Origin: Serinicoccus kebangsaanensis
Lineage (GTDB): Bacteria; Actinomycetota; Actinomycetes; Actinomycetales; Dermatophilaceae
Assembly (NCBI RefSeq): GCF_008919445.1
Contig: NZ_VSLG01000007.1
Span: forward strand, 1 to 64,000
Direction of reading: 5' to 3'
DNA length: 64,000 bases
This document shows, in pieces, positions 26,260 through 39,189 of the stretch; the stretch's first letter is position 1; every line of letters starts with the position of its first letter. Under the pieces are notes generated by a model. The model was not told the origin of the DNA, searched no databases, and saw nothing but the letters and a program-made list of their open reading frames with translations. The position numbers and the translations under genes were made by a program.

Positions 26260-26429
26260 CTGAGACCCGGACCGCAGCTTGCCCGAAGGCCGGAAGCAGC
26301 GACGACGGAGACCGTCCTTCGCGCAGGCCGGCACAGAAGCAGCCCTCGCATGCGTGTCTCCGTCTGCTCGCGCTGCCCGGGTACGCACGACAGGCGACTC
26401 ATCCTGTGACCGAGCGCGACGACCTCCAG
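26260..26429. other. Non-coding spacer marking the left edge of the copper/Nuo segment
   Basis: No convincing reading frame, hairpin terminator or direct repeat is visible in these 170 bases between the CNNM operon and the copper promoter. No tRNA, integrase or attachment-site duplication was seen. Confidence 0.5.
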
Positions 26430-26458
26430 TTGCTGGATACCCCATGGGGGTATAGAGT
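26430..26458 (+). promoter_or_regulatory. Copper-type promoter with CsoR-like palindrome
   Basis: TTGCTG (26430-26435) and TAGAGT (26453-26458) form -35 and -10 elements with a 17-base spacer. Between them lies the palindrome ATACCCC-ATG-GGGGTAT (26437-26453). TACCCC/GGGGTA half sites are those of CsoR/RcnR-type metal repressors, so a repressor would sit exactly on the core promoter and be released by Cu(I). No csoR gene lies in the window, so the regulator must be elsewhere. Confidence 0.75.
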
Positions 26459-26496
26459 GCAACCGTCAGGACCCAACGACGTGAGGAGATCAGGAC

Positions 26497-26709
26497 ATGG
26501 CGACCACGACCGAGTTTCAGGTGACCGGGATGACCTGCGGACACTGCGAGGGATCGGTACGATCCGAGGTCTCGCAGGTCCCGGGCGTCACCGCGATCGA
26601 GGTCAGTGCTCAGACCGGGCAACTGGCCGTGACCAGCGAGCAGCCGGTCGATGATGCCGCCGTGATCGCGGCGGTCGACGAGGCTGGCTACGCCGCTGTC
26701 AGGAGCTGA
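26497..26709 (+). CDS. copZ: Copper chaperone CopZ (heavy-metal-associated domain)
   Basis: A 70-residue single HMA domain with the Cu(I) site MTCGHC (residues 12-17) and the ferredoxin-like beta-alpha-beta-beta-alpha-beta pattern. It would carry cytosolic Cu(I) to the ATPase CopA encoded two genes downstream. A GTGAGGAG Shine-Dalgarno lies eight bases before the ATG. It is the first gene after the copper-type promoter and is followed one base later by the next start. Confidence 0.93.
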   Translation: MATTTEFQVTGMTCGHCEGSVRSEVSQVPGVTAIEVSAQTGQLAVTSEQPVDDAAVIAAVDEAGYAAVRS

Positions 26710-26710
26710 G

Positions 26711-27703
26711 ATGCAGGCGCCTGCGCGGCTCGGCCTCTACTCCGCCGGGCTGGTGGCCGTGTTCGCCGTGGCGTTCGCCACGGCGGGCGCGGTCGTCCCT
26801 GCCGACACCGTGCAGGCCTGGGCAGAGGGCAGCGGCGACCACGCCACCCACGACCAGGCAGCAGAGGATGTGACCGGCGCGGGCGGACGCGCCGGCCACG
26901 ACGCGGCCCCGTCGCCCCTAGGACTGGGCGTGGCCTCCGACGGCTACCAGCTCACCGGCATCAGTGCCCCGACCGGCGCCGGCACCGACGGAGAGCTGTC
27001 GCTGACGGTGACCGGACCCGACGGGGCAGCAGTGACGGACTTCGAGACCGAGCACGAGGAGGAGCTGCACCTGATCGTCGTCCGCGCCGACGGGCAGCAG
27101 TTCCGCCACGTGCACCCCGAGAGGGACGCCGACGGCGCCTGGTCGATCCCGTGGCAGTGGGACGCGGCCGGCAGCTACCGGGTGTTCGCGGACTTCGTGC
27201 CCGGCCAGACCGGGGAGGGCATCACGCTCTCGACCACGCTGCAGGTGCCCGGCGACTACGCCTCGGTACCGGCCGAACCACTCGCCGAGACCACCGTGGA
27301 CGGCTTCGACGTCGCGGTGACCGGTGACCTGGTCGCGGGCGAGTCCTCGGCGCTGACCATGACTATCACCCGCGACGGGGAGCCGGTCACGACGCTGGAG
27401 CCCTACCTGGGCGCGTACGGGCACCTGGTCGCGCTGCGCGACGGCGACCTGGCCTACCTGCACGTCCACCCCCACGGCGACGCACCTGCCGCCGGGCAGA
27501 CGTCGGGACCGGAGGTCGCGTTCGATGTCACCGCGCCGACCGAGGGGCGATACCTGTTGTTCCTGGACTTCCAGACGGGCGGCCAGGTGCACACCGCGCC
27601 GCTGGTGATCGACACCGCCGGCACCAGCAGCGGCGGCCCGACCAGCACCGGCGACGGGCAGCGTCAGGACGAGCACGAGGCAGGAGAGGACCATGACCAC
27701 TGA
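26711..27703 (+). CDS. Membrane-anchored copper-operon protein with duplicated HxHP domain
   Basis: A 330-residue protein with an N-terminal membrane helix (about 8-30), a His-containing linker (HATHDQ, GHD) and two similar beta-rich domains. Each carries an HVHP motif (133-136 and 251-254) in the context HL-V-R-G...HVHP...G-Y--F-DF--G. The C-terminus is Asp/Glu/His-rich and ends HDH. Placement between copZ and copA and the paired His motifs point to extracytoplasmic copper binding, for instance receiving Cu(I) from CopA. No named enzyme family is assigned. Its 3' end overlaps copA by 11 bases. Confidence 0.7.
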
Positions 27704-30089
27704 GAACGCGAGTACGGGCGGCATCGGTACGGAGAACGTCGGTGCCGGGAGCGTCGGCACCAGGGTCGATCTGACCGGCGTCGAGCTGCAGATCGGTGGC
27801 ATGACGTGTGCGTCGTGCGCGAACCGGATCGAGAAGAAGCTGAACAAGCTCGACGGCATCACCGCGAGCGTGAACTACGCGACCGAGAAGGCCAGCGTCA
27901 CCGCCCCGGAGGGCTATGACCCGCAGCTGCTGATCGCGGAGGTGGAGAAGACCGGCTACACCGCCGAGCTCCCTACCCCCAAGGGTGAGAAGCCCAGCGA
28001 CGGGGATGAGGGCGAGTCCCGTGAGGACGCCGAGCTGCGCACGCTGCGCCAGCGGCTCATCGGTTCGGCGGTGCTCGCGGTCCCGGTGATCGCGATGGCG
28101 ATGATCCCGGCGTTGCAGTTCGACTACTGGGGTTTCGCCTCCCTGGTCCTGGCCGCACCCGTGGTGGTGTGGGCGGGGTGGCCGTTCCACAAGGCGGCCT
28201 GGATGAACCTCAAGCACGGTGCCGCCACGATGGACACGCTCATCTCCGTGGGCACGAGCGCGGCGATGATCTGGTCGATCGTGGCGCTGTTCTTCGGCAC
28301 CGCCGGCGACCGCGGCGTGGTCCACCCGTTCGAGCTCACCATTTCCCGCTCCGACGGCCTCGGGCACATCTACCTGGAGGTCGCCGCCGGGGTGATCACG
28401 TTCATCCTGCTGGGCCGCTACTTCGAGAAGCGTTCCAAGCGCCGCGCCGGAGCAGCCCTCCGTGCGCTGCTCGAGCTCGGCGCGAAGGAGGTCTCCGTCC
28501 TGCGGGGCGGCAAGGAGGAGCGGATCTCCACTGAGGAGTTGAGCGTCGGGGACGAGTTCGTGGTTCGGCCCGGCGAGAAGATCGCCACCGACGGCACCAT
28601 CACCTCCGGTTCCAGCGCCATCGATGCGTCCTTGCTCACCGGCGAGTCGGTCCCGGTCGAGGTCGGCGAGGGCGACAGTGTCACCGGCGCGACCGTCAAC
28701 GCCGGCGGACGCCTCGTCGTCCGCGCCACCCGCGTCGGGTCCGACACCCAGCTGGCGCAGATGGCCAAGCTCGTCGAGGACGCCCAGTCCGGCAAGGCCG
28801 AGATCCAGCGCCTGGCCGACCGCGTCTCCGGGGTGTTCGTGCCGATCGCGATCGCGATCGCCGTCGCCGCTCTCGGCGCCTGGATCGGTGCCGGGTTCCC
28901 GCTCAGTGCCGGGTTCACCGCCGCCGTGGCGGTGCTGATCATCGCCTGCCCGTGCGCCCTGGGCCTGGCCACCCCGACCGCGCTGCTGGTCGGCACCGGC
29001 CGCGGCGCCCAGATGGGTGTGCTCATCAAGGGCCCCGAGGTGCTGGAGTCCACCCGCAAGGTCGACACGATCGTCCTGGACAAGACCGGCACCGTCACCA
29101 CCGGCAAGATGACCCTGACCGACGTGATCACCGCCGACGACACCGACCGGGCCGAGCTGCTGCGCCTGGCCGGCGGGCTGGAGGACTACTCCGAGCACCC
29201 CATCGCCCAGGCCGTCGCCACCGGCGCCGTCGCCGAGGTCGGCGACCTGCCGACCCCGGAGTCCTTCGACAACATCGAGGGCAAGGGCGTCCAAGGCGTC
29301 ATCGACGGCCACGCCGTCCTGGCCGGCCGCGAGTCGCTGCTGGCGGACTGGTCGATCCACCTCGACGAGGACCTCAAGGCCGCGAAGCAGGCCGCCGAGG
29401 CCGAGGGCAAGACGGCCATCGCTGTCGGCTGGGACGGGGCAGCCCGCGGCGTGCTGGTCGTGTCCGACCAGATCAAGCCCACCTCTGCCGAGGCGATCCG
29501 CCAGTTCACCGACCTGGGGCTGACGCCGGTGCTGCTGACCGGCGACAACCAGGCCGTGGCTCAGCAGGTCGCCGCCGAGGTCGGCATCACCCAGGTGATC
29601 GCCGAAGTCATGCCCAAGGACAAGGTCGATGTCGTCGCCCGCCTGCAGGGCGAGGGCAAGGTCGTCGCCATGGTGGGCGACGGCGTCAACGACGCCCCCG
29701 CCCTGGCTCAGGCCGACCTCGGCCTGGCGATGGGGACCGGCACCGACGTCGCGATCGAGGCCGCCGACATCACCCTGGTGCGCGGCGACCTGCGCGCCGC
29801 CGCGGACGCGATCCGGCTGTCGCGCAAGACGCTGGGCACGATCAAGACCAACCTGTTCTGGGCCTTCGCCTACAACACCGCCGCCATCCCCCTGGCCGCC
29901 TTCGGGCTGCTCAACCCCATGCTCGCCGGTGCCGCGATGGCCCTCTCGTCGGTGTTCGTCGTCTCCAACAGCCTGCGGCTGCGGACCTTCAAGGCCAAGG
30001 CCGACGACCAGGCCGCACCCGCCGGCGGCACTCCGACACCGGCACGTGCACCCGTGGACGCGCCGTCGACAGCAGGCTCGGCGCGCTGA
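27693..30089 (+). CDS. copA: Copper-exporting P1B-type ATPase CopA
   Basis: A 798-residue P1B-1 ATPase. It has one N-terminal metal-binding domain (MTCASC, Cys39/Cys42), eight membrane helices with the ion-path CPC (about residue 420), the actuator TGES, the phosphorylation loop DKTGT (about 462), the nucleotide-domain SEHPIA and the hinge [10 protein letters not shown]. Conserved Tyr-Asn and Met-Ser residues in the last two helices ([11 protein letters not shown] and [12 protein letters not shown]) specify Cu(I). It pumps Cu(I) out of the cytosol. Only 9 bases separate it from the nuoA-like gene, so transcription likely continues. Confidence 0.95.
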
Positions 30090-30098
30090 GGGCGATCG

Positions 30099-30443
30099 AT
30101 GTATCTCGGGATCATCGTGGTGGCTGCCGTCGTCGTGACCTCGGTGCTGGGGATGTATGCCCTGCACCGGGCGACGACGCTGGCCGCGCATCCCCTGCAC
30201 GCCTTGCCCTTCGAGTCGGGATCTGTCCCCCAGCAACATGCTCTGTCCCGCTACCACGTGCGGTGGTACGTCGCGTCAGTGATCTTCCTCGCCTTCGACG
30301 TGGAGATGCTCTTCATGTACCCCTGGGCCGTTGTCGTGGTCCAGGTCGGGGTGTCCGCGATCCTGGAGATGTTCCTCTTCCTCGGCGCCCTGTTCGTCGC
30401 CGTTCTCTGGGCCTGGCGCGAGGGGGCGTTCCGATGGGTCTGA
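30099..30443 (+). CDS. nuoA: NuoA-like membrane subunit
   Basis: A 114-residue protein with three membrane helices. The loop/TM2 motif FDVEMLFMYPWA (from residue 66) is the NuoA signature, with both acidic residues of the family (Asp67, Glu69) kept. In complex I NuoA sits at the junction of membrane arm and quinone module. It follows copA by 9 bases and its 3' end overlaps the next gene by 10 bases. As there is no NADH module here, the usual enzyme name should not be applied. Confidence 0.88.
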   Translation: MYLGIIVVAAVVVTSVLGMYALHRATTLAAHPLHALPFESGSVPQQHALSRYHVRWYVASVIFLAFDVEMLFMYPWAVVVVQVGVSAILEMFLFLGALFVAVLWAWREGAFRWV

Positions 30444-31597
30444 GGGACGCCATGGCCAGGTCGGCGGCCCGCCACGCGCACGTCCTGGTCGTGGAGACAC
30501 CCGGGTGGGACGGGACCCGAATGGCTGCCGAGCGCGCGGTGCTGGACCGCGGGTGGCGGCTCGCCCGGTCACCGGCAGACGCGGACGTCCTTGTCGTCTG
30601 CGGGTCGCCCGGTCCGACGCTGAACGAGGCGGTAGACCTTGTATGGCACCAGATGCCGGGCCCGCGGGTGCGGGTCGACATCCGCGACCGTAGCGATGTC
30701 TCCCCAGCCCTCGTGGACGCGCAGGCCAGGTTGCTCGACGAGGACCGCCACCGGCGCGACGCCCATGATCGTCCCGAGGCGCCAGACCTGCTCGACGGGC
30801 GCCGAACTGGCGACGGGGCAGGGCACCGGGGGTCCGAGGATCCTGGGGCAGGCGAAGCCCCGCAAAGGAGTGAGGACCACCGGAACGACGACCACGTCGA
30901 GGGGCACGCAGACCACGACGCCCACGCGGGTCACGGGGACATGGGGATGTCGCCGGGTGGCATCCGCCTGGCGGAGGGGGCTGAAGACCGGGACGGGCTG
31001 GAGATGGACCTCCTCGAGGTGCGGCTGGGGCCGGTCTTGCCGCACTGGCCGGCAGGCCTGGTGCTGCACTGCTCGCTGCAGGGGGACATCGTCACGGACG
31101 CGCGCGCCGAGGTGGTCAGCGCCGCGGACCAGGGTGGAGATCGGGTTGGGCCGCGGGCCAGGGCGCTGGACCAGGTCGTGTCCATGCTGACGATCGCCGG
31201 GTGGGACGACGCAGCGGAGCAGGCCCGGCGGGTCCGAGACTCCTCACCAGTCAGTAGGGTCGGGCGAGCAGGGCTCGCGCGGCTGCGGCGTCGGGTGCGT
31301 CGCTCCTGGCCGTTGCGCTGGTCGATGCGTGGCCTGGGACCACTGACCGCGGACGACGTCCGTCTCCTTGGCCTTCCCGCGGACGTCGCGGGTGATGCCT
31401 ACGACCGGCTCGTCGGTCTGCTGGCGCGCGCTGAGGCGGCGCCGCCGCCCGAGGACCGTCCAGGGATCCCGGTCGACGAACTGGCCGGGGTGGTCGTGGG
31501 TCTGGACCTCGCCGCCGTGCGTCTCATCATCGCCGGTCTCGACGTCGGCCCGCGGCGCGCCGCTCTGGGAGCTCTGCCGGAGGCAAACCGTGGGTGA
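30434..31597 (+). CDS. Degenerate NuoB-NuoD-like fusion with His-rich linker
   Basis: A 387-residue protein. Residues 14-85 follow the NuoB fold (ARSPADADVLVVCGSPGPT, then VDLVWHQMPGPRVRVDI) but lack all cluster N2 cysteines: the usual CC pair position reads ETPGWDG. Residues 100-170 are a charged linker with nine His between 149 and 167 (DHRNDDHVEGH, ADHDAHAGH). Residues 190-225 match the start of NuoD (LEVRLGPVLPHWPAGLVL then QGDIV), and MRGLGPLTADDVRLLGLP recalls a later NuoD segment. The quinone-site and NiFe-type motifs are absent. Redox activity is therefore unlikely; a structural or metal-sensing cap is an inference. Confidence 0.65.
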   Translation: MGLRDAMARSAARHAHVLVVETPGWDGTRMAAERAVLDRGWRLARSPADADVLVVCGSPGPTLNEAVDLVWHQMPGPRVRVDIRDRSDVSPALVDAQARLLDEDRHRRDAHDRPEAPDLLDGRRTGDGAGHRGSEDPGAGEAPQRSEDHRNDDHVEGHADHDAHAGHGDMGMSPGGIRLAEGAEDRDGLEMDLLEVRLGPVLPHWPAGLVLHCSLQGDIVTDARAEVVSAADQGGDRVGPRARALDQVVSMLTIAGWDDAAEQARRVRDSSPVSRVGRAGLARLRRRVRRSWPLRWSMRGLGPLTADDVRLLGLPADVAGDAYDRLVGLLARAEAAPPPEDRPGIPVDELAGVVVGLDLAAVRLIIAGLDVGPRRAALGALPEANRG

Positions 31598-32570
31598 GTC
31601 GCTCGAGTCCTCGCTCCCGCGGGACGGGGTCCTACCGGTCGTCACTGTCGCGCCCGGCTGGGGGATCGGGGTGGTGGCCGTGCTCGGCGCCCTGGTCATC
31701 GTCGCGGCTGTGCTCGATGGCGTCCTGTGCGCGCGCTCTGCGGGATCATCGCTGGGTGTCGGCGGCGGAGCTGGCCGGCCGTTGGGCGAGGCGGCTCGGT
31801 TGATGCGGCAGCGCCGCCGCACCACCGTGCAGGCTGACACCCTGCTCTGGCGCGTCGGTGGAGCTGGGCTCGTCGTCGCAGCGGCCCTGATGGTTGCGGT
31901 GGTGCCCCTGGGCCGGTGGACGGTCGCCGACCTCGACGTGGGCGTCGTCTGGTTCAACGCGATGGACGTCATGGTCTGGGCCGTGGTGTGGCTGACCGGG
32001 TGGGGCGCCAACTCGACGCACGCGCTGGTCGGGGGGTACCGGTTCCTGGCGCATGGCCTGGGTTACGAGTTGCCTCTGATGTTTGCCCTCGTCGCCCCGG
32101 CGATCGCTGCGGGAAGCCTCAACGTCGGCATGGTCGCCGCCGCGCAGGACGGGGTGTGGTTCGCCGTCTGGATGCCGGTGGCGTTCGCTGTATACCTGCT
32201 GGGGGTGGCCGGATTCTCGGTGTGGGGGCCGTTCGCCCCGGCGCTGGGTGTTGACATCGCCGGCGGCGTGCGGGCCGAGCTGTCCGGGGTGGACCGGCTG
32301 CTGTTCGAGACAGGACGCTACGCGCTGCTCGCCGCCGGGGCAGCCTTCGCGGTTCCGATGTTTCTGGGCGGTGGGGCCGGGCCGGTGCTGCCGGGCTGGG
32401 CCTGGGTCCTGCTCAAGACCCTGGCCGTGCTCTCCCTGCTGGTCTGGGCACGCCGCAAGCTCCCCGCCCTGCGTCCGGACACGTTCATGGAGCTGGGCTG
32501 GTTGGTGCTGCTCCCCGCAGTGCTGGTGCAGGACCTGCTCGTCGCCGTCGTCGCGGTATGGAGGTCCTGA
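31590..32570 (+). CDS. nuoH: NuoH-like membrane subunit
   Basis: A 326-residue, eight-helix NuoH homologue: GGYRFLAHGLGYELPLMFALVAPAI corresponds to the conserved helix with SYELP, and MELGWLVLLPAVLVQ to the C-terminal helix. The acidic quinone-channel loop (PFDLPEAE in normal NuoH) is replaced by ALGVDIAGGVRAELSG, and the MAEY element by LLAAGAAF. The link from quinone site to proton path is thus altered. GTG at 31590 has GGAGG nine bases upstream and overlaps the preceding stop by eight bases. Confidence 0.82.
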   Translation: MGESLESSLPRDGVLPVVTVAPGWGIGVVAVLGALVIVAAVLDGVLCARSAGSSLGVGGGAGRPLGEAARLMRQRRRTTVQADTLLWRVGGAGLVVAAALMVAVVPLGRWTVADLDVGVVWFNAMDVMVWAVVWLTGWGANSTHALVGGYRFLAHGLGYELPLMFALVAPAIAAGSLNVGMVAAAQDGVWFAVWMPVAFAVYLLGVAGFSVWGPFAPALGVDIAGGVRAELSGVDRLLFETGRYALLAAGAAFAVPMFLGGGAGPVLPGWAWVLLKTLAVLSLLVWARRKLPALRPDTFMELGWLVLLPAVLVQDLLVAVVAVWRS

Positions 32571-33139
32571 CCGTGGTGGTCGTCGACGTCGCTTTCTGGG
32601 TGCTGGGTCTGGTGGCGGTCCTGGGCGGTGCGGTGGTCTTCGTCGTGGACTCGATGGCCCGGGCCACGTACGGCCTCGCCGTGTCCTTCGTCGCGGTAGG
32701 GGTGCAGGTGCTGATGCTTCAGCAGAGCTATGTCGGCGTGGTCATCATCCTCATGATGGTCATGGAGATGGCGGTCATGGCGGTCTACATGGTGATGTTC
32801 ATGGGGATGAACCCGGCCCTGATGCCGATGAGCATGGTGCACAGCAACCGGACCGCCCTCGCCGCAGCGGTTCTGGCCTTCCTCATCCTGGCGGCCGGGA
32901 TCCTGCTGGTGGACTGGCCCACCCGTCGGGGCAATCCTCAACCCGACGTCACGGTGGCGTTGGGTGAAGCTCTCATGGGGCGGCAGATGCTGGTCATGGC
33001 CGTCATCAGCCCGGTCATGGTCGCCACCATCGTGGCCGGGGTGGTGCTCGCCGCGCCCCGCACCCGGTACGACCGGCTCGGCGACGACCTAAGGCGGCGC
33101 CCGGCCGACGACCACCAGCCCGGTGGGGTGGGCCGATGA
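32558..33139 (+). CDS. nuoJ: NuoJ-like membrane subunit with Met-rich helix
   Basis: A 193-residue protein with five predicted helices, in the NuoJ place between H and K. TM1-TM3 follow the NuoJ pattern (DSMARATYGLAVSFVAVGVQ, then SYVGVVIILMM). Residues 66-93 contain 12 methionines in 28 positions, including MVMFMGM and MPMSM, far above the normal Leu/Val/Phe-rich NuoJ helix. Methionine clusters bind Cu(I)/Ag(I) in copper proteins, so copper binding is conceivable but unproven. It starts inside the nuoH 3' end (13-base overlap). Confidence 0.82.
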   Translation: MEVLTVVVVDVAFWVLGLVAVLGGAVVFVVDSMARATYGLAVSFVAVGVQVLMLQQSYVGVVIILMMVMEMAVMAVYMVMFMGMNPALMPMSMVHSNRTALAAAVLAFLILAAGILLVDWPTRRGNPQPDVTVALGEALMGRQMLVMAVISPVMVATIVAGVVLAAPRTRYDRLGDDLRRRPADDHQPGGVGR

Positions 33140-33438
33140 CCCTGGAAGCCGCTCTGCTCATCGCCGCGGCGATCTTCTCCGTCGGTCTCTACGGCGCGAT
33201 CTCTCAACAGGTCGTGGTGATGGTGATGATGGGCCTGGAGCTGATGATCAACGCGGTCATCCTCGCCGCGGCCGCCTGCTGGTGGTTCCTGGCGCCCGAC
33301 CCTACGGGACAGGTCTTGCTCCTGGTCATCATCGCCGCGATGACGCTGGAGATGGCTATGGGGTTCGCCGTCGCCACCTTGCTGCACCGGTCCCGCCGGG
33401 TCGACATGACCGACATGGCGACGGACCTCACCCGATGA
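33136..33438 (+). CDS. nuoK: NuoK-like membrane subunit
   Basis: A 100-residue, three-helix NuoK/MrpC-type subunit. Both membrane glutamates of the complex I proton path are present: Glu35 in MMGLELMINAV and Glu72 in MTLEMAMGF, equivalent to Glu36/Glu72 of E. coli. This argues that ion translocation is retained. The ATG overlaps the nuoJ stop (ATGA) and the stop overlaps nuoL (ATGA). Confidence 0.9.
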   Translation: MTLEAALLIAAAIFSVGLYGAISQQVVVMVMMGLELMINAVILAAAACWWFLAPDPTGQVLLLVIIAAMTLEMAMGFAVATLLHRSRRVDMTDMATDLTR

Positions 33439-35294
33439 GTCAGTCCACCGCTGAGACCGCTCTGTGGCTCCTCGTGCTGCTGCCAGCGCTGGTCGGTGCC
33501 GCTCTGACGCTCCTTCGTCCACAGCGCGCGGCGGTCACCGCCTCCCTGGTCACGGCAGGAGTCACGGCTGCTCTGGCGCTCTTCGTGAGCGTGACCGGGC
33601 CGCAGGTGGGAGTGCCGTTCATGGCCGGCAGCCACCTCGCGCTCGGGGTCGACCCCCTGTCGGCGCTCGTCGTCCCCACGATCGCGGTCGTGACCCTTCT
33701 GGTGCTCCTCTTCTCCGCGGGTGAGATCCAACGGTCCCGCGCCCGCTTCCATGGGCTCATGCTCCTCTTCGCCGCCGGTGCGTTGCTGACTGCCACCGCG
33801 CAGACGCTGCCCGCGCTTCTCCTGGCCTGGGAGGTCATGGGCGCGACCTCCTTCGCCCTCGTCGGCTTCTGGTGGCACGAGCAGCGCAGGGTCCGCGCCG
33901 GCACCACCGCCTTCCTGGTGACCCGGGCGGCTGACCTGGGCCTCTACCTGGCGGGTGGGGCGGCTCTCGCCGGCGGCGGCGGGCTGGCACTGACGGATCT
34001 GTCGGCCGCGGACGACGCCTGGCGGCACGTCCTGGCCGGTGGTGTGCTCGTCGCTGCCCTCGGCAAGGCGGCCCAGCTCCCGTTCTCGTTCTGGCTGTCC
34101 AGGGCGATGGAGGGCCCCAGCCCGGTCAGCGCGCTGCTGCACTCGGCCGCGATGGTGGCCATGGGCGGCTACCTGCTGCTACGCACCGAGCCGCTGCTCG
34201 CCTCGACGGGATGGGCCGGGCCTGCCGCCGCCTGGGTCGGCGCGAGCACCGCGCTCCTCCTGGGTGCTGTGGCGCTAGCCCAGCAGGACCTCAAACAGCT
34301 GCTCGCTGCTTCCACCTCGGCCCAGCTGGGCTTCGTCGTGATGGGGGCCGGGCTGGGCACGGTGGGTGGGGGCGCCGCTCACCTCGTGGCGCACGCCTCG
34401 ACCAAGGCGCTGCTCTTCCTCGCTGCCGGGGCCTGGCTCAACGCCTTGGGCACCAAGCACCTGACCGGCCTGCGCGGGGTCGCCCGGCGCTGGCCGCTGG
34501 TCGGCTGGGCCAGCACCCTGGGGGTGCTCTCGCTGGCTGGGGTGGCACCCCTCGCGCTGTGGGCGACCAAGGATGCCGTGCTGGCCGCGGCGCTGGCCCG
34601 GTCACCCTGGTTGTTTGCCGTGGGCATGGCCGCGGCTGCCTTGTCCGCCGCCTACTCCGGCAGGATCCTTCTCGCCGTCTGGGGTCGCGTCCCCGCGCAG
34701 GACCGCACCCGCGTGAAGGAGCATCTCGACGAGGAGCAGCCGGGCACCGGCCACATCGGCCTGCTCGAGCGTCTGCCGATGCTGGCGCTCGCCCTCGGCG
34801 CGGTGACCTTGGGTCTGCTCGCGCTCCCCCCGGTGGGTGACACCTTCGCCCGCGCCCTCGGGGAGGAACCCGCGCACCCGGGCATGGCTGAGATGGCCGG
34901 GTCCGCGGGCATCGCGCTCCTCATGCTCGCCCTCGTCTGGTGGCGCCCGCCTCCCCGCCCCCGCTTGGCCCGCCACTGGCTCGGGCTGGAGACGGCAGCC
35001 CGGACCACCGTCGTGGTCCCGACGCTGGCGCTGGCCCGGGCTCTTGCACGGTTCGACGACCGGGTCCTGGACCGGGGGGTCGGCGCGATGGCGGTGGGTG
35101 CCATCAGCGTGGCGCGGCAGGTGGCCGCTGTCGACGACCACCGGGTCGACGGTCTGGTGGAAGGGCTTGCGGCCCGCGTCCGTCGGCTGGGCCAGGTGGC
35201 GCGGCGCCCCCAGAGCGGGCAGCTTCATCACTACTACGTCCAAGCCGTCGCCGTCCTCGTGGTCGGCGTCCTTCTCCTGCTCACGGTGAGGTGA
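33435..35294 (+). CDS. nuoL: NuoL-like antiporter subunit
   Basis: A 619-residue, ~15-helix antiporter-like subunit. The key acidic residue Glu133 (AWEVMGATSFALVGFWW), the broken-helix Lys211 in GKAAQLPFSFWLSRAMEGPSPVSALLH and His236 are all intact. These match the residues essential for proton translocation in NuoL/MrpA. The C-terminal part has helices and a charged stretch where normal NuoL has its long lateral helix. Start and stop overlap neighbours (ATGA, GTGA). It probably moves H+ or Na+ through the membrane. Confidence 0.9.
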   Translation: MSQSTAETALWLLVLLPALVGAALTLLRPQRAAVTASLVTAGVTAALALFVSVTGPQVGVPFMAGSHLALGVDPLSALVVPTIAVVTLLVLLFSAGEIQRSRARFHGLMLLFAAGALLTATAQTLPALLLAWEVMGATSFALVGFWWHEQRRVRAGTTAFLVTRAADLGLYLAGGAALAGGGGLALTDLSAADDAWRHVLAGGVLVAALGKAAQLPFSFWLSRAMEGPSPVSALLHSAAMVAMGGYLLLRTEPLLASTGWAGPAAAWVGASTALLLGAVALAQQDLKQLLAASTSAQLGFVVMGAGLGTVGGGAAHLVAHASTKALLFLAAGAWLNALGTKHLTGLRGVARRWPLVGWASTLGVLSLAGVAPLALWATKDAVLAAALARSPWLFAVGMAAAALSAAYSGRILLAVWGRVPAQDRTRVKEHLDEEQPGTGHIGLLERLPMLALALGAVTLGLLALPPVGDTFARALGEEPAHPGMAEMAGSAGIALLMLALVWWRPPPRPRLARHWLGLETAARTTVVVPTLALARALARFDDRVLDRGVGAMAVGAISVARQVAAVDDHRVDGLVEGLAARVRRLGQVARRPQSGQLHHYYVQAVAVLVVGVLLLLTVR

Positions 35295-36787
35295 CTGTGC
35301 TCAGTCTGATCATCTTCCTGCCCCTGCTCGGCGCGGTGGCCCTCGTCGTCATCCCACGCCTGGACGGTGCAGCCGCACGGTGGCTCTGGGTGGTGGTCGC
35401 GGCCGCCGACCTGGCCCTCGTCACCGGCCTGTGGCTGGCCTACGAGCCACCGGGGGCAGGCCGGCTGGCCTTCGAGGAGCGGGCGCGGTGGATCCCGGGG
35501 GTCGACAGCAGCTACCACGTAGGTGTGGACGGCCTGTCGCTGCCGCTCATGGCGATGACAGCCGTGATCTTCCTGGCCTGCGCGGTCTTCGCCCTCCGCG
35601 ACCAGGACCGGCCTCGCACCCGGGCGGCGCTCTTCCTCTTCCTGCAGAGCGTGAGCCTGGGCCTGTTCGCCGCCGCCGACCTCATCCTGTTCTTCCTCTT
35701 CTTCGACCTGTCCATCGTCGGGATGTACTTCGTCATCGCCGGGTGGGGCCACGGGGACCGCGGCCGCTCGGCGATGAAGTTCTTCCTCTACACCTTCCTG
35801 GGTTCGCTGTCCCTGCTCGCAGGGTTCATCGGGCTCTACGTCGCTGCTGAGCCGCATACCTTCGACATGGTCGAGCTGGCCGAGCAGACCCCGCTCGACG
35901 GGTCGCCGACGGCCGGCGGGCTGGTGCTCGCGGCGATCCTGCTGGGGCTGGCGGTCAAGACGCCCACGGTGCCGTTCCACACCTGGTTGCCGCCGGCGCA
36001 TACCGACGCCCCCGCGGTCGGGTCGGCAGTGCTCGCCGGTGTCCTGCTGAAGATGGGCACCTATGGATTCGTCCGGATCGCGATGCCGATGCTGCCCGAG
36101 GCCTGGCGGGCCTGGGCCTGGGTGGTCCTCGTGGTCGGCATCGTCTCGGTCGTGTACGGCGCGCTGGTCGCGCTCGCCCAGACCGACCTCAAGCGGATGA
36201 TCGCCTACACCTCGGTCAACCACATGGGCTATGTGGTGCTGGCCGTCGGTGCCGCGGGCATCCTGACCGAGGGCACCGCCCAGGCTCGGTCGGTCGCAGT
36301 CACCGGTGCGGTGACGCAGATGGTCAGCCACGGCCTCATCACTGCCGCCCTGTTCCTGCTCGTTGGCGTGTTCTGGGAGCGCGCGGGCACCTACGATCTG
36401 GGCTCCTACGGCGGACTGGCCGGTCCCGCACCGCGCCTGGCCACGCTCTTCGCCCTCGGCGCGTTCGCATCACTCGGGCTGCCCGGCCTGTCCGGGTTCA
36501 TCGCCGAGTTCCAGGTCTTCGCCGGGAGCATCGCCGTGGCGCCAGTGACCGCGATCGCGCTGGTCGGCCTCCTGCTCACCGCCGCGCTGTTCCTGCGGGC
36601 CCTGCAACGCCTCTTCTCCGGCCCCACCGACGGCGCCTCACGAGGATTCGGCGACCTGCGTCCGGCCGAACTCTGGTCGGTGGCTCCGCTGCTGGCGCTC
36701 TCTCTGCTCATCGGAGTCTTGCCACGGCCACTGCTCGGCGTGGTCGAGCCCGCTGCAGACCTCGTCGTCCAGCTCGTCGGGAGGTAG
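35291..36787 (+). CDS. nuoM: NuoM-like antiporter subunit
   Basis: A 498-residue NuoM homologue with ~14 helices. The position of the TM5 glutamate holds Asp139 (LFFDLSIVGMYFVIAGWG), a conservative change. LAVKTPTVPFHTWLPPAHTDAP keeps the first Lys and the broken helix, and VLLKMGTYGF keeps the second. QTDLKRMIAYTSVNHMG is standard. The GTG at 35291 overlaps the nuoL stop. A later GTG at 35297 would shorten the protein by two residues. Confidence 0.9.
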   Translation: MTVLSLIIFLPLLGAVALVVIPRLDGAAARWLWVVVAAADLALVTGLWLAYEPPGAGRLAFEERARWIPGVDSSYHVGVDGLSLPLMAMTAVIFLACAVFALRDQDRPRTRAALFLFLQSVSLGLFAAADLILFFLFFDLSIVGMYFVIAGWGHGDRGRSAMKFFLYTFLGSLSLLAGFIGLYVAAEPHTFDMVELAEQTPLDGSPTAGGLVLAAILLGLAVKTPTVPFHTWLPPAHTDAPAVGSAVLAGVLLKMGTYGFVRIAMPMLPEAWRAWAWVVLVVGIVSVVYGALVALAQTDLKRMIAYTSVNHMGYVVLAVGAAGILTEGTAQARSVAVTGAVTQMVSHGLITAALFLLVGVFWERAGTYDLGSYGGLAGPAPRLATLFALGAFASLGLPGLSGFIAEFQVFAGSIAVAPVTAIALVGLLLTAALFLRALQRLFSGPTDGASRGFGDLRPAELWSVAPLLALSLLIGVLPRPLLGVVEPAADLVVQLVGR

Positions 36788-36793
36788 GCCGCG

Positions 36794-38197
36794 GTGGAGT
36801 CCATGGCGATGCGACCACTGCTGTTGCTGCCGGAGATCGTGCTCTTCGTCGGCGGGCTCGCGGTGCTGCTCGGCGGGTCCTTCCTGCCGCGCACCCGCCA
36901 GTGGGTCACCCGGGTCATCGCCGGTGTCGCCTCGGTCGTCGCGGCCGTCCTCGGCGCGGTCGCCATGTCCGGTACGTCGACGACGGCCATGGAGGGAACC
37001 TTCATCGTGGACACGACCACCGGGGTCGCGCGTCTCGTCGCCGCGCTCGGTGCCTTGGTGGTGCTCGCGCTGGCGGCGGACGAGATCGATGCCAGCCCCC
37101 GGGAGAGCGAAGCCTATGCGCTGCTGCTCTTCTCCACCGCCGGGACACTGGTCCTCGCCGGAGCGGACGACCTGCTCGTCGTCGCGGTCGGGTTCCTCCT
37201 GGCCAGCGTTCCGCTCTACGGGCTCATCGGCATCACGGGCACCGCCCTGGGGGCTGAGGCTGCGATGAAGACCTACTTGCTCGGCGCGCTCCTCGGCATC
37301 CTCCTGCTGGCCGGTATCACCCTGCTCTACGGTGTGGCGGCCACCACGTCGTACGCAGAGCTGACCGACCGGCTCGCCGAGGCGCCGACAGGGGTGGTCG
37401 CCGCAGGCCTCGTCGGGGTGCTGGGCGGGCTGATGTTCAAGGCTGGTGGCGTTCCGGGACACTTCTGGGTCCCCGATGCGGCGCAGGGAGCCGGCGGTGC
37501 GGTCGCGGCCTTTCTCACGACCGTGCCGAAGATCGGTGCGGTCATCGCCGTGTACCGCCTCGTCAGCGTCCTGCCCGGCACGCTGGCCTGGCCGGCTCTG
37601 GTCGCCGCTCTGGCGGTCGCGAGCATGACGTTGGGCAACCTCGCCGCCTACGGGCAGACCGATCCCAGACGACTTCTCGGCTGGTCCACCGTCAGCCAGG
37701 TGGGCTACCTGCTCGTCCCGGTCGCGGTCGCCGGGCGCAGCGACCTGGCGCTGCCTTCGCTACTGCTCTACCTGGCCGGCTACACCGTGACCAACCTGGC
37801 AGCCTTCGCCGTGACGACCGCTCTTCCGACAGGGCGCGAGCTGGCCGCCTACCGCGGGATGGCCAGGTCCTACCCGTGGCTCGGGGCGGCGCTGGCCGTG
37901 GCGCTGCTCGGGCTGCTGGGGACCCCGCCCACCGTGGTCTTCGTCGGCAAGCTGACGATCACAGCCGCGGCCTGGGACGCCGGCTACGCCTGGCTAGGCG
38001 TACTCGCCCTCCTCAACACCCTCGTCAGCCTGTTCTACTACCTGCGCTGGATCGCCGCCCTCTACGCCCACCCCACGGGGCAGCTCCCGGAGACCCGCGC
38101 ACCACTCTCCTGGTCACGCACGGCTGCCCTCGTCACCGCCGCCCTCAGCGTGCTCCTCGGCATCGGCGCCGGACCCCTGTGGACCATCTTGGCCTGA
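36794..38197 (+). CDS. nuoN: NuoN-like antiporter subunit
   Basis: A 467-residue NuoN homologue, last gene of the cluster. The Lys of MFKAGGVPGHFWVPDA (Lys216) and TVPKIGA are kept, but the TM5 glutamate of the family (GLELLSLPLY) is replaced: residues 133-142 read GFLLASVPLY, with Leu135 in the Glu place. The channel in this subunit may be impaired or rewired. The start may be GTG 36794 or ATG 36803. A terminator follows at 38305. Confidence 0.88.
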   Translation: MESMAMRPLLLLPEIVLFVGGLAVLLGGSFLPRTRQWVTRVIAGVASVVAAVLGAVAMSGTSTTAMEGTFIVDTTTGVARLVAALGALVVLALAADEIDASPRESEAYALLLFSTAGTLVLAGADDLLVVAVGFLLASVPLYGLIGITGTALGAEAAMKTYLLGALLGILLLAGITLLYGVAATTSYAELTDRLAEAPTGVVAAGLVGVLGGLMFKAGGVPGHFWVPDAAQGAGGAVAAFLTTVPKIGAVIAVYRLVSVLPGTLAWPALVAALAVASMTLGNLAAYGQTDPRRLLGWSTVSQVGYLLVPVAVAGRSDLALPSLLLYLAGYTVTNLAAFAVTTALPTGRELAAYRGMARSYPWLGAALAVALLGLLGTPPTVVFVGKLTITAAAWDAGYAWLGVLALLNTLVSLFYYLRWIAALYAHPTGQLPETRAPLSWSRTAALVTAALSVLLGIGAGPLWTILA

Positions 38198-38304
38198 CTC
38201 CCCGTCTCAGAGGCGGTCCCGGAGGAGCTCCGCCCCGGGCACAGCACCTCGGCGAGCGGGACACCGCATTGGGGGCGCCCTCGCGACGCACCCTCACGGG
38301 GATG

Positions 38305-38341
38305 CCGATAGGCCCCGACCAGTGCGGTCGGGGCCTATCGG
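38305..38341. terminator. Strong bidirectional terminator at the end of the Nuo-like cluster
   Basis: A perfect 15-base inverted repeat (CCGATAGGCCCCGAC at 38305-38319 and its complement at 38327-38341) with a 7-base loop separates nuoN from the convergent NlpC gene. There is no T tract on either side, as is usual for actinobacterial terminators. The preceding 107 bases contain no gene I can support. Confidence 0.85.
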
Positions 38342-38361
38342 TCAGGCTGGTGCGTGCTCGG

Positions 38362-39189
38362 TCAGCCCACGCGGCCGTAGCCGGAGACGCCGGGGAAAAC
38401 CTCGCGCAGGGATAGCACCTTGCCCGGGGTCGGCGAGTCGTACATCATGCCGTTCCCGGCGTAGATGCCGATGTGGTAGGCCGGGTACCCGTAGAAGACC
38501 AGGTCACCGGGCTGCGGGGTGCTCACCGGCGTGGCGAAGGCCTGCTGCTGGGCTGCCGTGCGCGGCAGACTGATACCCACCTGGGCGAAGACATAGCTCG
38601 TGAAGCCAGAGCAGTCGAAGCCGGCAGGCGTGCTGCCACCCCACTGGTAAGGGGTACCGACGTACTGCGAGGCGATGCCTACCACCCCACCGGTAGCGGC
38701 GGGCGCGGCGGCAGCGGCCGGCTGCGGCTCCGGCTCGGCCTGCACGGCGGGCTCGGGCTCGGCCGCGGGCTCCGCGGTGGCGGCGCGCTCGTTGGTCCGG
38801 CTGGCGCTGGTCTCCTCACGGGTGGCGACCTGCTCGGCGACCGGCTCCTCGACGGTGGGCTCGGCCTCGGCGACCGGCTCCTCCTCGACGGGGGTGTAGG
38901 CGCTGAACCCGCTGATCCCGAAGGAGGCGAGCTCGATGTCCTCGGGGGCGGCCGCGGCCTCGGCCGGGCGGTCCACCGTCACGGTGCGGTCGGCGCTGAC
39001 TCCCGCGCCCAGGCGCAGCAGGCCCTCGCCCCGCTCCTGGGACAGGTCGGGGGTGGCCGTGGCGCTCAGGGTGGCGCCGGCCAGCAGGCCCGTGGACGTG
39101 GCCGCGACGGCGGCGGTGCGGGTCAGGGTGCTTCCGGTCGCGCTGAGGCGACTGGGCCGACGGTGGCGGCCCGTGGTGCGCTGCGTCAT
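38362..39189 (-). CDS. NlpC/P60 peptidoglycan hydrolase (secreted)
   Basis: A 275-residue secreted endopeptidase. The N-terminus is basic followed by a signal-type helix (about 21-45). Then comes a long acidic Glu/Pro/Ala linker (100-165) and the NlpC/P60 domain from about 168. Cys193 in FDCSGF and His239 in AYHIGIY are the catalytic pair. It should cleave stem-peptide bonds in the cell wall. GGAGG lies six bases before the ATG, and a c-di-AMP riboswitch covers the leader, so expression follows the nucleotide second messenger that reports turgor and wall status. Confidence 0.9.
   Translation of the reverse strand: MTQRTTGRHRRPSRLSATGSTLTRTAAVAATSTGLLAGATLSATATPDLSQERGEGLLRLGAGVSADRTVTVDRPAEAAAAPEDIELASFGISGFSAYTPVEEEPVAEAEPTVEEPVAEQVATREETSASRTNERAATAEPAAEPEPAVQAEPEPQPAAAAAPAATGGVVGIASQYVGTPYQWGGSTPAGFDCSGFTSYVFAQVGISLPRTAAQQQAFATPVSTPQPGDLVFYGYPAYHIGIYAGNGMMYDSPTPGKVLSLREVFPGVSGYGRVG

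Follow-up and report, generated by a model that had tools for sequence, protein, structure and literature searches.

Complex I-like membrane arms without redox ligands beside copper genes in Actinomycetota and on bacterial plasmids: a putative proton-coupled Cu(I)-translocating complex

Why should a copper-efflux operon continue into genes for the membrane arm of respiratory complex I? The question is raised by a locus of Serinicoccus kebangsaanensis lying in the window analysed here, i.e. the whole 64,000-nucleotide stretch at positions 1 to 64,000 of contig NZ_VSLG01000007.1 (assembly GCF_008919445.1). A first-pass annotation had described one unbroken run of genes from copZ to nuoN, and this run was confirmed: a CsoR-type palindrome is followed by copZ, the gene of an HxHP protein, copA, nuoA, a fused gene for a NuoB/NuoD-like protein (hereafter BD), nuoH, nuoJ, nuoK, nuoL, nuoM and nuoN, all at the places claimed. 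A gap of 9 bases, in which a terminator therefore has no room, separates copA from nuoA, while all other neighbours overlap or are at most 8 bases apart. The operon's list of open reading frames (ORFs) contains no nuoC, nuoE, nuoF, nuoG or nuoI gene. The part from nuoA to nuoN, here termed the module, belongs almost certainly to the handling of copper (or of copper and silver) in general, and its sequence features make it probable that the encoded complex would be a proton-coupled Cu(I) translocator, most likely acting in export.

The redox parts of complex I are missing from the module, as had been claimed, and the residues that serve them are gone from the subunits that remain. BD (30434-31597, + strand, as are all genes of the operon) consists of a NuoB-like domain without Fe-S cysteines, a His/Met-rich linker and a shortened NuoD-like domain. 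Its start is probably at 30434 rather than at the later possible position 30452, because the automatically chosen start overlaps nuoA by 10 bases in many homologues and the window has an ATG at the matching place. The tandem cysteines of cluster N2 are absent from all 22 BD proteins aligned, among which the single Cys of a VCG motif alone is common. Canonical rows have the HPSTHG motif of NuoD, which includes the quinone His, and the Tyr of DYL; in 14 module rows these are replaced or deleted, BD of the crown clade reading GPVLPHWPAG at the HPSTHG position. Structure comparison of the BD model indicated that both the NuoD fold and a NuoB-like fold are kept. Similarly, the NuoH-like subunit (31590-32570; PF00146, E 1e-42) belongs to a group in which five charged residues of the quinone loop, shared by 12-13 of 13 canonical NuoH sequences, are lost or altered, the equivalents of canonical E209, R212, D216 and E219 being lost. 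In complex I, these residues of NuoB, NuoD and NuoH are those that bind cluster N2 and quinone.

The residues with proton-channel roles in complex I are retained. In the three antiporter-like subunits, the alignments gave E133, K211, H236 and K379 of NuoL (33435-35294) in 120-121 of 121 sequences, K223, K254 and E406 of NuoM (35291-36787; TIGR01972 above cut-off) in 116-118 of 119, and K246 and K386 of NuoN (36794-38197) in 117/117 and 116/117, respectively; in 112/119 NuoM sequences, Asp139 stands in for a canonical Glu. The NuoK-like subunit (33136-33438; PF00420) keeps E35 in all 122 sequences, while position 72 (E72) is a Glu in 116 of these and an Asp in the other 6. Furthermore, the NuoA-like subunit (30099-30443; PF00507, E 1.8e-24) retains the FDVE motif, with E69 in 120/120 sequences and Asp or Glu at D67 in 119/120.

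The most distinctive feature of the module is found in the NuoJ-like subunit (32558-33139; PF00499 above cut-off), which belongs to a Met-rich family. Methionines at positions 33, 66, 67, 71, 74, 78, 82, 84, 91 and 93, together with E70 and H95, are present in all 123 sequences aligned, and 10 of the 19 invariant columns among 106 non-redundant sequences are Met; the canonical NuoJ rows do not carry these methionines. They are kept in all three clades of the module, including six deep loci with 30-44% identity to the window, and also in two Sulfitobacter copies, one Paracoccus copy and one Halomonas copy (Alpha- and Gammaproteobacteria). Codons 66-95 (32753-32842), which cover most of helix 3 (residues 57-81 of a model with five helices) and the next loop, would constitute the proposed Cu(I) path. 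Within this segment M67 occupies the place of the Tyr in the canonical VYTGA turn, which we take to be the pi-bulge gate of complex I, and M67, M71, M74, M78 and M82 fall within 80 degrees on a helical wheel. Mean Met content is 9.2% in module NuoJ versus 2.2% in the canonical protein (2 sequences), 9.7% versus 4.8% in NuoK (5 canonical sequences) and 4.6% versus 2.4% in NuoA (13 canonical sequences), with M29, M31 and M69 of NuoK (122 sequences) and M73 and M91 of NuoA (120 sequences) invariant. The enrichment is confined to these subunits, as Met is rarer than in the canonical proteins in NuoH, NuoL and NuoM of the module, and NuoN had no canonical row. The positive-inside rule would place both loop 3-4 and the C-terminus of NuoJ in the cytoplasm.

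A further feature is the presence of segments of metal-binding type, most of them in BD. The linker of the window BD, HADHDAHAGHGDMGM (30863-30955, + strand), is rich in His, Met and Asp, is predicted to be disordered (low predicted local distance difference test, pLDDT, values) and, by comparison with the inserts of its relatives, may bind copper. A His-rich or His/Met-rich stretch, typically of MDHGGMDH-like repeats, was found in BD of 74 of 81 crown loci. BD of all six loci of the family that contains Rubrobacter carries CPMHP...CPxCGM motifs instead, which correspond to HMBD (PF19335) in both proteins scanned (E 8e-23 and 9.5e-15), and a third clade, whose BD has neither HMBD nor His repeats, has a His-rich C-terminal tail on NuoJ in 8 of 11 loci. 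An appendage of one of these kinds is thus present in 88 of 98 non-redundant loci, and none of the 59 canonical proteins compared (subunits A, H, J, K, L and M; the control did not extend to NuoB and NuoD) reached the His threshold. That an appendage of similar kind occurs at differing sites suggests that it matters. Neither the inserts in BD nor the invariant methionines of NuoJ, NuoK and NuoA had featured in the first-pass annotation, and in combination they suggest that the complex itself handles copper.

The length of the linker is variable among relatives, the loci L111, L179, L180 and L089 not fitting the linker pattern in this analysis. Most of the deep-branching loci L085-L096 have GGEGMMGG..GRPMAM in place of the His repeats, and BD of genome G249 (L043 9354-10979) contains a long run of near-identical MDHSGMDHST repeats in many copies. 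The alignments of BD exclude L050 (masked bases) and L056, L057 and L058 (cut), and L112 and L141 were dropped from one of them owing to unread letters; 43 of 63 distinct BD rows and 41 of 55 NuoJ rows were used as input for structure prediction.

The module is not peculiar to Serinicoccus. Of the 126 loci fetched, 110 have the whole order A-BD-H-J-K-L-M-N and none has mixed strands; since the identical order recurs so often, the arrangement is not due to chance. One of the remaining 16 loci has N and M swapped, and 15 are short of at least one subunit, which we take to reflect stretch ends or missed matches. Matches to BD were obtained in 26 of 297 genomes of the same order, one of them (L059, genome G215) spurious, and matches to the D-part of BD in 33 of 396 genomes across the phylum, of which 20 regions from 19 genomes were read. 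A scan of 84,980 species genomes returned 242 relatives, 80 of which were kept. In the NuoM tree, where 30 crown rows and 4 canonical rows were compared and L054 was mis-extracted and forms a false long branch, the named rows nearest to the window are from Serinicoccus and Ornithinimicrobium (identity up to 90%), and the tree weakly supports monophyly of the module.

Searches of plasmid records yielded 16 matches to the window BD and 16 to a Sulfitobacter NuoJ, the hosts being Mycobacterium, Rhodococcus, Gordonia, Arthrobacter, Rubrobacter, Sulfitobacter, Paracoccus, Roseovarius, Thioclava, Nitratireductor, Halomonas and others. The full module is annotated in eight of the nine records opened, three of these eight being typed as conjugative, while the ninth was too fragmented to judge. 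Complete copies reside on plasmids of Rubrobacter, Sulfitobacter, Paracoccus, Halomonas, Arthrobacter, Rhodococcus and Mycobacterium. The module is thus widespread in Actinomycetota and plasmid-borne there as well as in Alpha- and Gammaproteobacteria. A phage origin was also considered and rejected, a scan of viral_contigs with the window BD, which reaches close relatives only, having found none.

If the module handles copper, its neighbours should tell. CopA, CsoR, CopZ or a multicopper oxidase (MCO) was encoded within 8 kb of the module, or up to where the fetched stretch ended, in 65 of 126 loci (55 of 109 non-redundant ones), the non-redundant counts by clade being 46/91 for the crown and 4/12 and 5/6 for two deeper clades. 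These core copper families were found in none of 20 canonical nuo regions and none of 20 regions taken at random from module-bearing genomes, a total of 769 kb. The flank available per module locus, approximately 9 kb as set by the fetched stretch or contig, is half that of a control region. Co-location with genes for copper efflux, sensing or oxidation therefore exceeds chance, and the first-pass view of a redox-less complex I relative with a link to copper is borne out by the recurrence of copper genes beside the module in distant genomes. In Rubrobacter tropicus, the module is preceded by genes for DUF305, a P-type ATPase, a metal-sensitive regulator and a copper-binding protein; its neighbours are CusA and CopB/MCO in Sulfitobacter, and copC, copD, azurin, regulators, MCO and copB in Halomonas. 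Copper genes surround the module in Arthrobacter FB24, and a heavy-metal ATPase is found near it in Mycobacterium avium and Paracoccus.

It was equally conceivable that the module is the membrane arm of an ordinary complex I whose hydrophilic subunits are encoded elsewhere, and the window's own genome does contain a canonical nuo operon, including NuoF, on contig C37. Of the 56 module-bearing genomes found, 36 were tested for NuoF. A NuoF match is missing in 10 of these 36 genomes, and matches to the NuoB and NuoD families are also missing in nine of the 10, which have a stated completeness of at least 99%. In these nine genomes the module must therefore work without complex I hydrophilic parts of these families. 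A redox role with subunits borrowed from a canonical nuo operon was accordingly rejected as a general rule, and in the same nine genomes the missing hydrophilic subunits cannot be supplied by a distant canonical operon, a distant supplier being what the first-pass annotation had named as a counter-argument. A second NuoD-like gene (PF00346, 389 residues, HPATHG intact) was noted approximately 75 kb downstream of the operon at G000:C35:105679-106437 (L060 10272-11441); contig C35, on which it resides, gave no match to the NuoB family.

The anatomy described above can be read as follows. Cu(I) would be collected by a cytoplasmic appendage, which depending on the lineage would be the BD linker, the HMBD domains of BD or the His-rich tail of NuoJ, while the degenerate NuoB/NuoD body would be seated on the heel formed by NuoH, NuoA, NuoJ and NuoK. 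From there the ion would enter the Met-rich loop 3-4 of NuoJ and then follow the row of methionines on NuoJ helix 3 and those nearby in NuoK and NuoA, so that its route would be the former coupling region (E-channel). Proton flow through NuoL, NuoM and NuoN may be coupled to this movement because these subunits keep their proton-channel residues. The physiological direction would be export of Cu(I) driven by the proton motive force, complementing the ATP-driven CopA. Going further, we lean towards regarding the module as a new class of metal transport, in which the redox driver would be replaced by Cu(I), the proton motive force would be applied via three antiporter-like subunits and the path through NuoJ, NuoK and NuoA would be lined by Met. 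The suggestion of the first-pass annotation that the complex energises or balances CopA is not upheld, since CopA adjoins the module in only 29 of 126 loci and uses ATP.

Several observations weigh against this reading. No clear metal-binding appendage was detected, by the thresholds used, in 10 of 98 loci, and a His-rich segment is also present in 108 of 1253 flanking ORFs. The NuoJ comparison included two canonical sequences in the main alignment, with E. coli, M. smegmatis and cyanobacterial NuoJ compared pairwise only. Clustering on one face of the helix is weak when all six invariant methionines between residues 66 and 82 are considered, as 3% of random draws equal it, and the NuoJ model is a single chain of modest confidence (pLDDT 68) that was used for helix limits alone. 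With regard to the neighbourhood, none of CopA, CsoR, CopZ and MCO occurs in the available flank of 54 of 109 non-redundant loci, while the count of positive loci leans upwards because the copper proteins used as queries came from neighbourhoods of the module itself; on a Rhodococcus plasmid the module is flanked by transposases and a relaxase, with no copper genes. Measured against the refuting condition of the first-pass annotation, that such clusters be mostly without copper genes, the outcome is mixed. Additionally, import or a gated proton channel would look alike in these data.

The last point calls for the alternatives to be weighed. A copper-gated proton channel, or regulator of pH or membrane potential, in which Cu(I) on BD and NuoJ would gate the flow of protons through NuoL, NuoM and NuoN without copper being moved, would likewise account for the metal-binding-type appendages, for Met sites in or near the coupling region and for the retained proton-channel residues. 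We nevertheless consider it unlikely, as a sensor has no obvious need for about ten invariant methionines over a helix and the next loop, and a proton leak would presumably be a poor answer to copper stress. An identical anatomy could also run in reverse and bring copper in, or move it to cuproenzymes, and genes of thiol-redox and cytochrome-assembly type were seen by eye near some copies (one CcdA being annotated). Such an importer or supplier is improbable given that the neighbours are mostly of resistance type (CopA, CsoR, CusA, CopB, MCO and DUF305), that the appendages are on the predicted cytoplasmic side and that carriage on plasmids fits detoxification.

A little less probable again is a redox enzyme with copper as the electron carrier, whereby Cu(I) on BD would replace the Fe-S chain and feed quinone, and the oxidation of cuprous ions would drive proton pumping. 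The NuoD fold kept by BD and the MCO in the flanks of 27 of 126 loci are in its favour; however, the quinone His and Tyr of NuoD and the quinone-loop charges of NuoH are gone, and the BD linker is disordered and of variable length. Finally, the module might be an ordinary cation/proton antiporter, akin to Mrp or to the energy-converting hydrogenase-related (Ehr) complexes, that travels as a passenger on metal-resistance islands and is functionally unconnected with copper. Cation-moving relatives of complex I that lack redox parts are known, and approximately half of the loci have no core copper neighbour in the available flank, yet every aligned NuoJ carries the invariant methionines, whether or not a copper gene lies nearby, and 88 of 98 loci have metal-binding-type inserts, which renders this explanation very improbable. 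Proton-coupled translocation of Cu(I), probably outwards, is accordingly the reading that we prefer.

The upstream part of the window operon carries copper-efflux genes. The palindrome TACCCCATGGGGGTA (26438-26452) is an exact match to TACCC-N5-GGGTA, a motif which we take to be that of CsoR/RicR-type operators. Of 102 non-redundant loci, 13 have this motif in the 500 bp upstream of nuoA, versus 20 of 1020 random windows, and with one mismatch allowed the counts are 23/102 versus 44/1020, an enrichment that may partly reflect intergenic position since the control windows were drawn anywhere in the same loci and are mostly coding. The palindrome is followed by copZ (26497-26709), encoding an HMA-type copper chaperone of 70 residues with a GMTCGHC motif, relatives of which are found in the flanks of 33 of 126 loci. 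The HxHP gene (26711-27703) gave no Pfam or NCBIfam family match; its product has an N-terminal hydrophobic stretch and is probably exported, and its relatives flank four of 126 module loci, including L100 of the Rubrobacter family. The third gene, copA (27693-30089), encodes a Cu(I) P1B-type ATPase (TIGR01511 above cut-off). Simple scans of 26300-38500 detected neither a sigma-70-type promoter nor a terminator with a T-tail. The hairpin with which the operon had been said to close is present as a perfect 16-bp inverted repeat read by eye at 38305-38341, a possible terminator at the operon end, although it is not followed by a T-tail.

Among other neighbours, DUF305 occurs in the flanks of 41 of 126 loci, a Cys-rich DUF326 protein also recurs, and CopCD- and YdhK-like proteins, named by eye, recur beside the module. 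The recurrent flank clusters (0, 5, 7, 28 and 34) comprise DUF305, DUF326, beta-propeller proteins (in Arthrobacter FB24 annotated F510_1955) and membrane proteins that are small and His-rich, all of which may represent additional copper proteins still to be characterised. No Pfam family was matched by one CcdA-like neighbour at the coordinates used. On plasmid AP019515.1 of Vreelandella sulfidaeris, an isolate from a metal-sulfide-rich rock, a NuoJ-like match (L240) lies amid many small hypothetical ORFs, as if the stretch were frameshifted or poorly sequenced. In L105, from a contig titled as an Acidobacteria metagenome-assembled genome, the D-part of BD is 60% identical to the Actinomycetota query set, perhaps owing to a binning error in the Acidobacteria label.

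By ancestry, the module is a member of the complex I superfamily, which also includes Mrp, Ehr and the hydrogenases. It shares with complex I (NDH-1) the subunits A, H, J, K, L, M and N in equal relative order, folds like those of B and D, and a seven-subunit membrane arm with the proton-channel residues of L, M, N, K and A; it differs in lacking C, E, F, G and I, in the fusion and shortening of B and D with loss of the N2 and quinone ligands, in its Met-rich J, K and A subunits and in its metal-binding-type inserts. Ehr complexes similarly have a NuoB/D-like core without redox ligands and keep antiporter subunits; they combine hydrogenase-type NuoB/C/D-like subunits lacking NiFe ligands with NuoH and antiporter subunits, derive from the hydrogenase side and are not known to have the NuoA/J/K/N set. 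The module, in which the redox ligands are likewise lost, has the subunit set of complex I. We know of no link between Ehr and copper. Mrp likewise combines antiporter-like subunits without redox partners but is not known to have an equivalent of NuoA, NuoH, NuoB or NuoD, whereas the module is not an MrpA-G set, includes NuoA, NuoH and BD, and has Nuo families as its best matches. In DabAB/MpsAB a NuoL-like subunit is coupled to a non-redox partner, yet these are two-subunit inorganic-carbon systems and the module is a whole membrane arm with BD. Methionines in transmembrane helices, His/Met repeats and HMBD domains serve as copper ligands in CTR1, CusA, CopA and PF19335 proteins, to which the module is comparable in this respect, although its membrane subunits are relatives of complex I and fall outside those families. 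By function, the module would be a new kind of metal transporter.

No published description of the gene set was present among the literature matches listed, a search whose reach excluded most subscription papers and bioRxiv, and the parts seen of PMC11877719, PMC8115904 and PMC8525567 do not mention it. To our knowledge, accounts of copper homeostasis do not include a proton-driven Cu(I) export machine. Public annotations name the module proteins 'NADH-quinone oxidoreductase', 'hypothetical protein', 'DUF4779' or 'heavy metal-binding domain-containing protein'.

The findings suggest that, in the course of evolution, a machine for respiration was converted into one that handles copper. If the proposed reading is true, the module would be a case in which nature has taken complex I apart into its two halves, the membrane arm and its E-channel working with an ion rather than with quinone chemistry, and it would provide a direct handle on the long-disputed coupling of the complex I heel to three distant proton channels. 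Bacteria would furthermore own a proton-driven machine for the export of Cu(I), carried in part on conjugative plasmids, and as copper is a widely used antimicrobial, such an uncounted determinant of tolerance would matter in practice.

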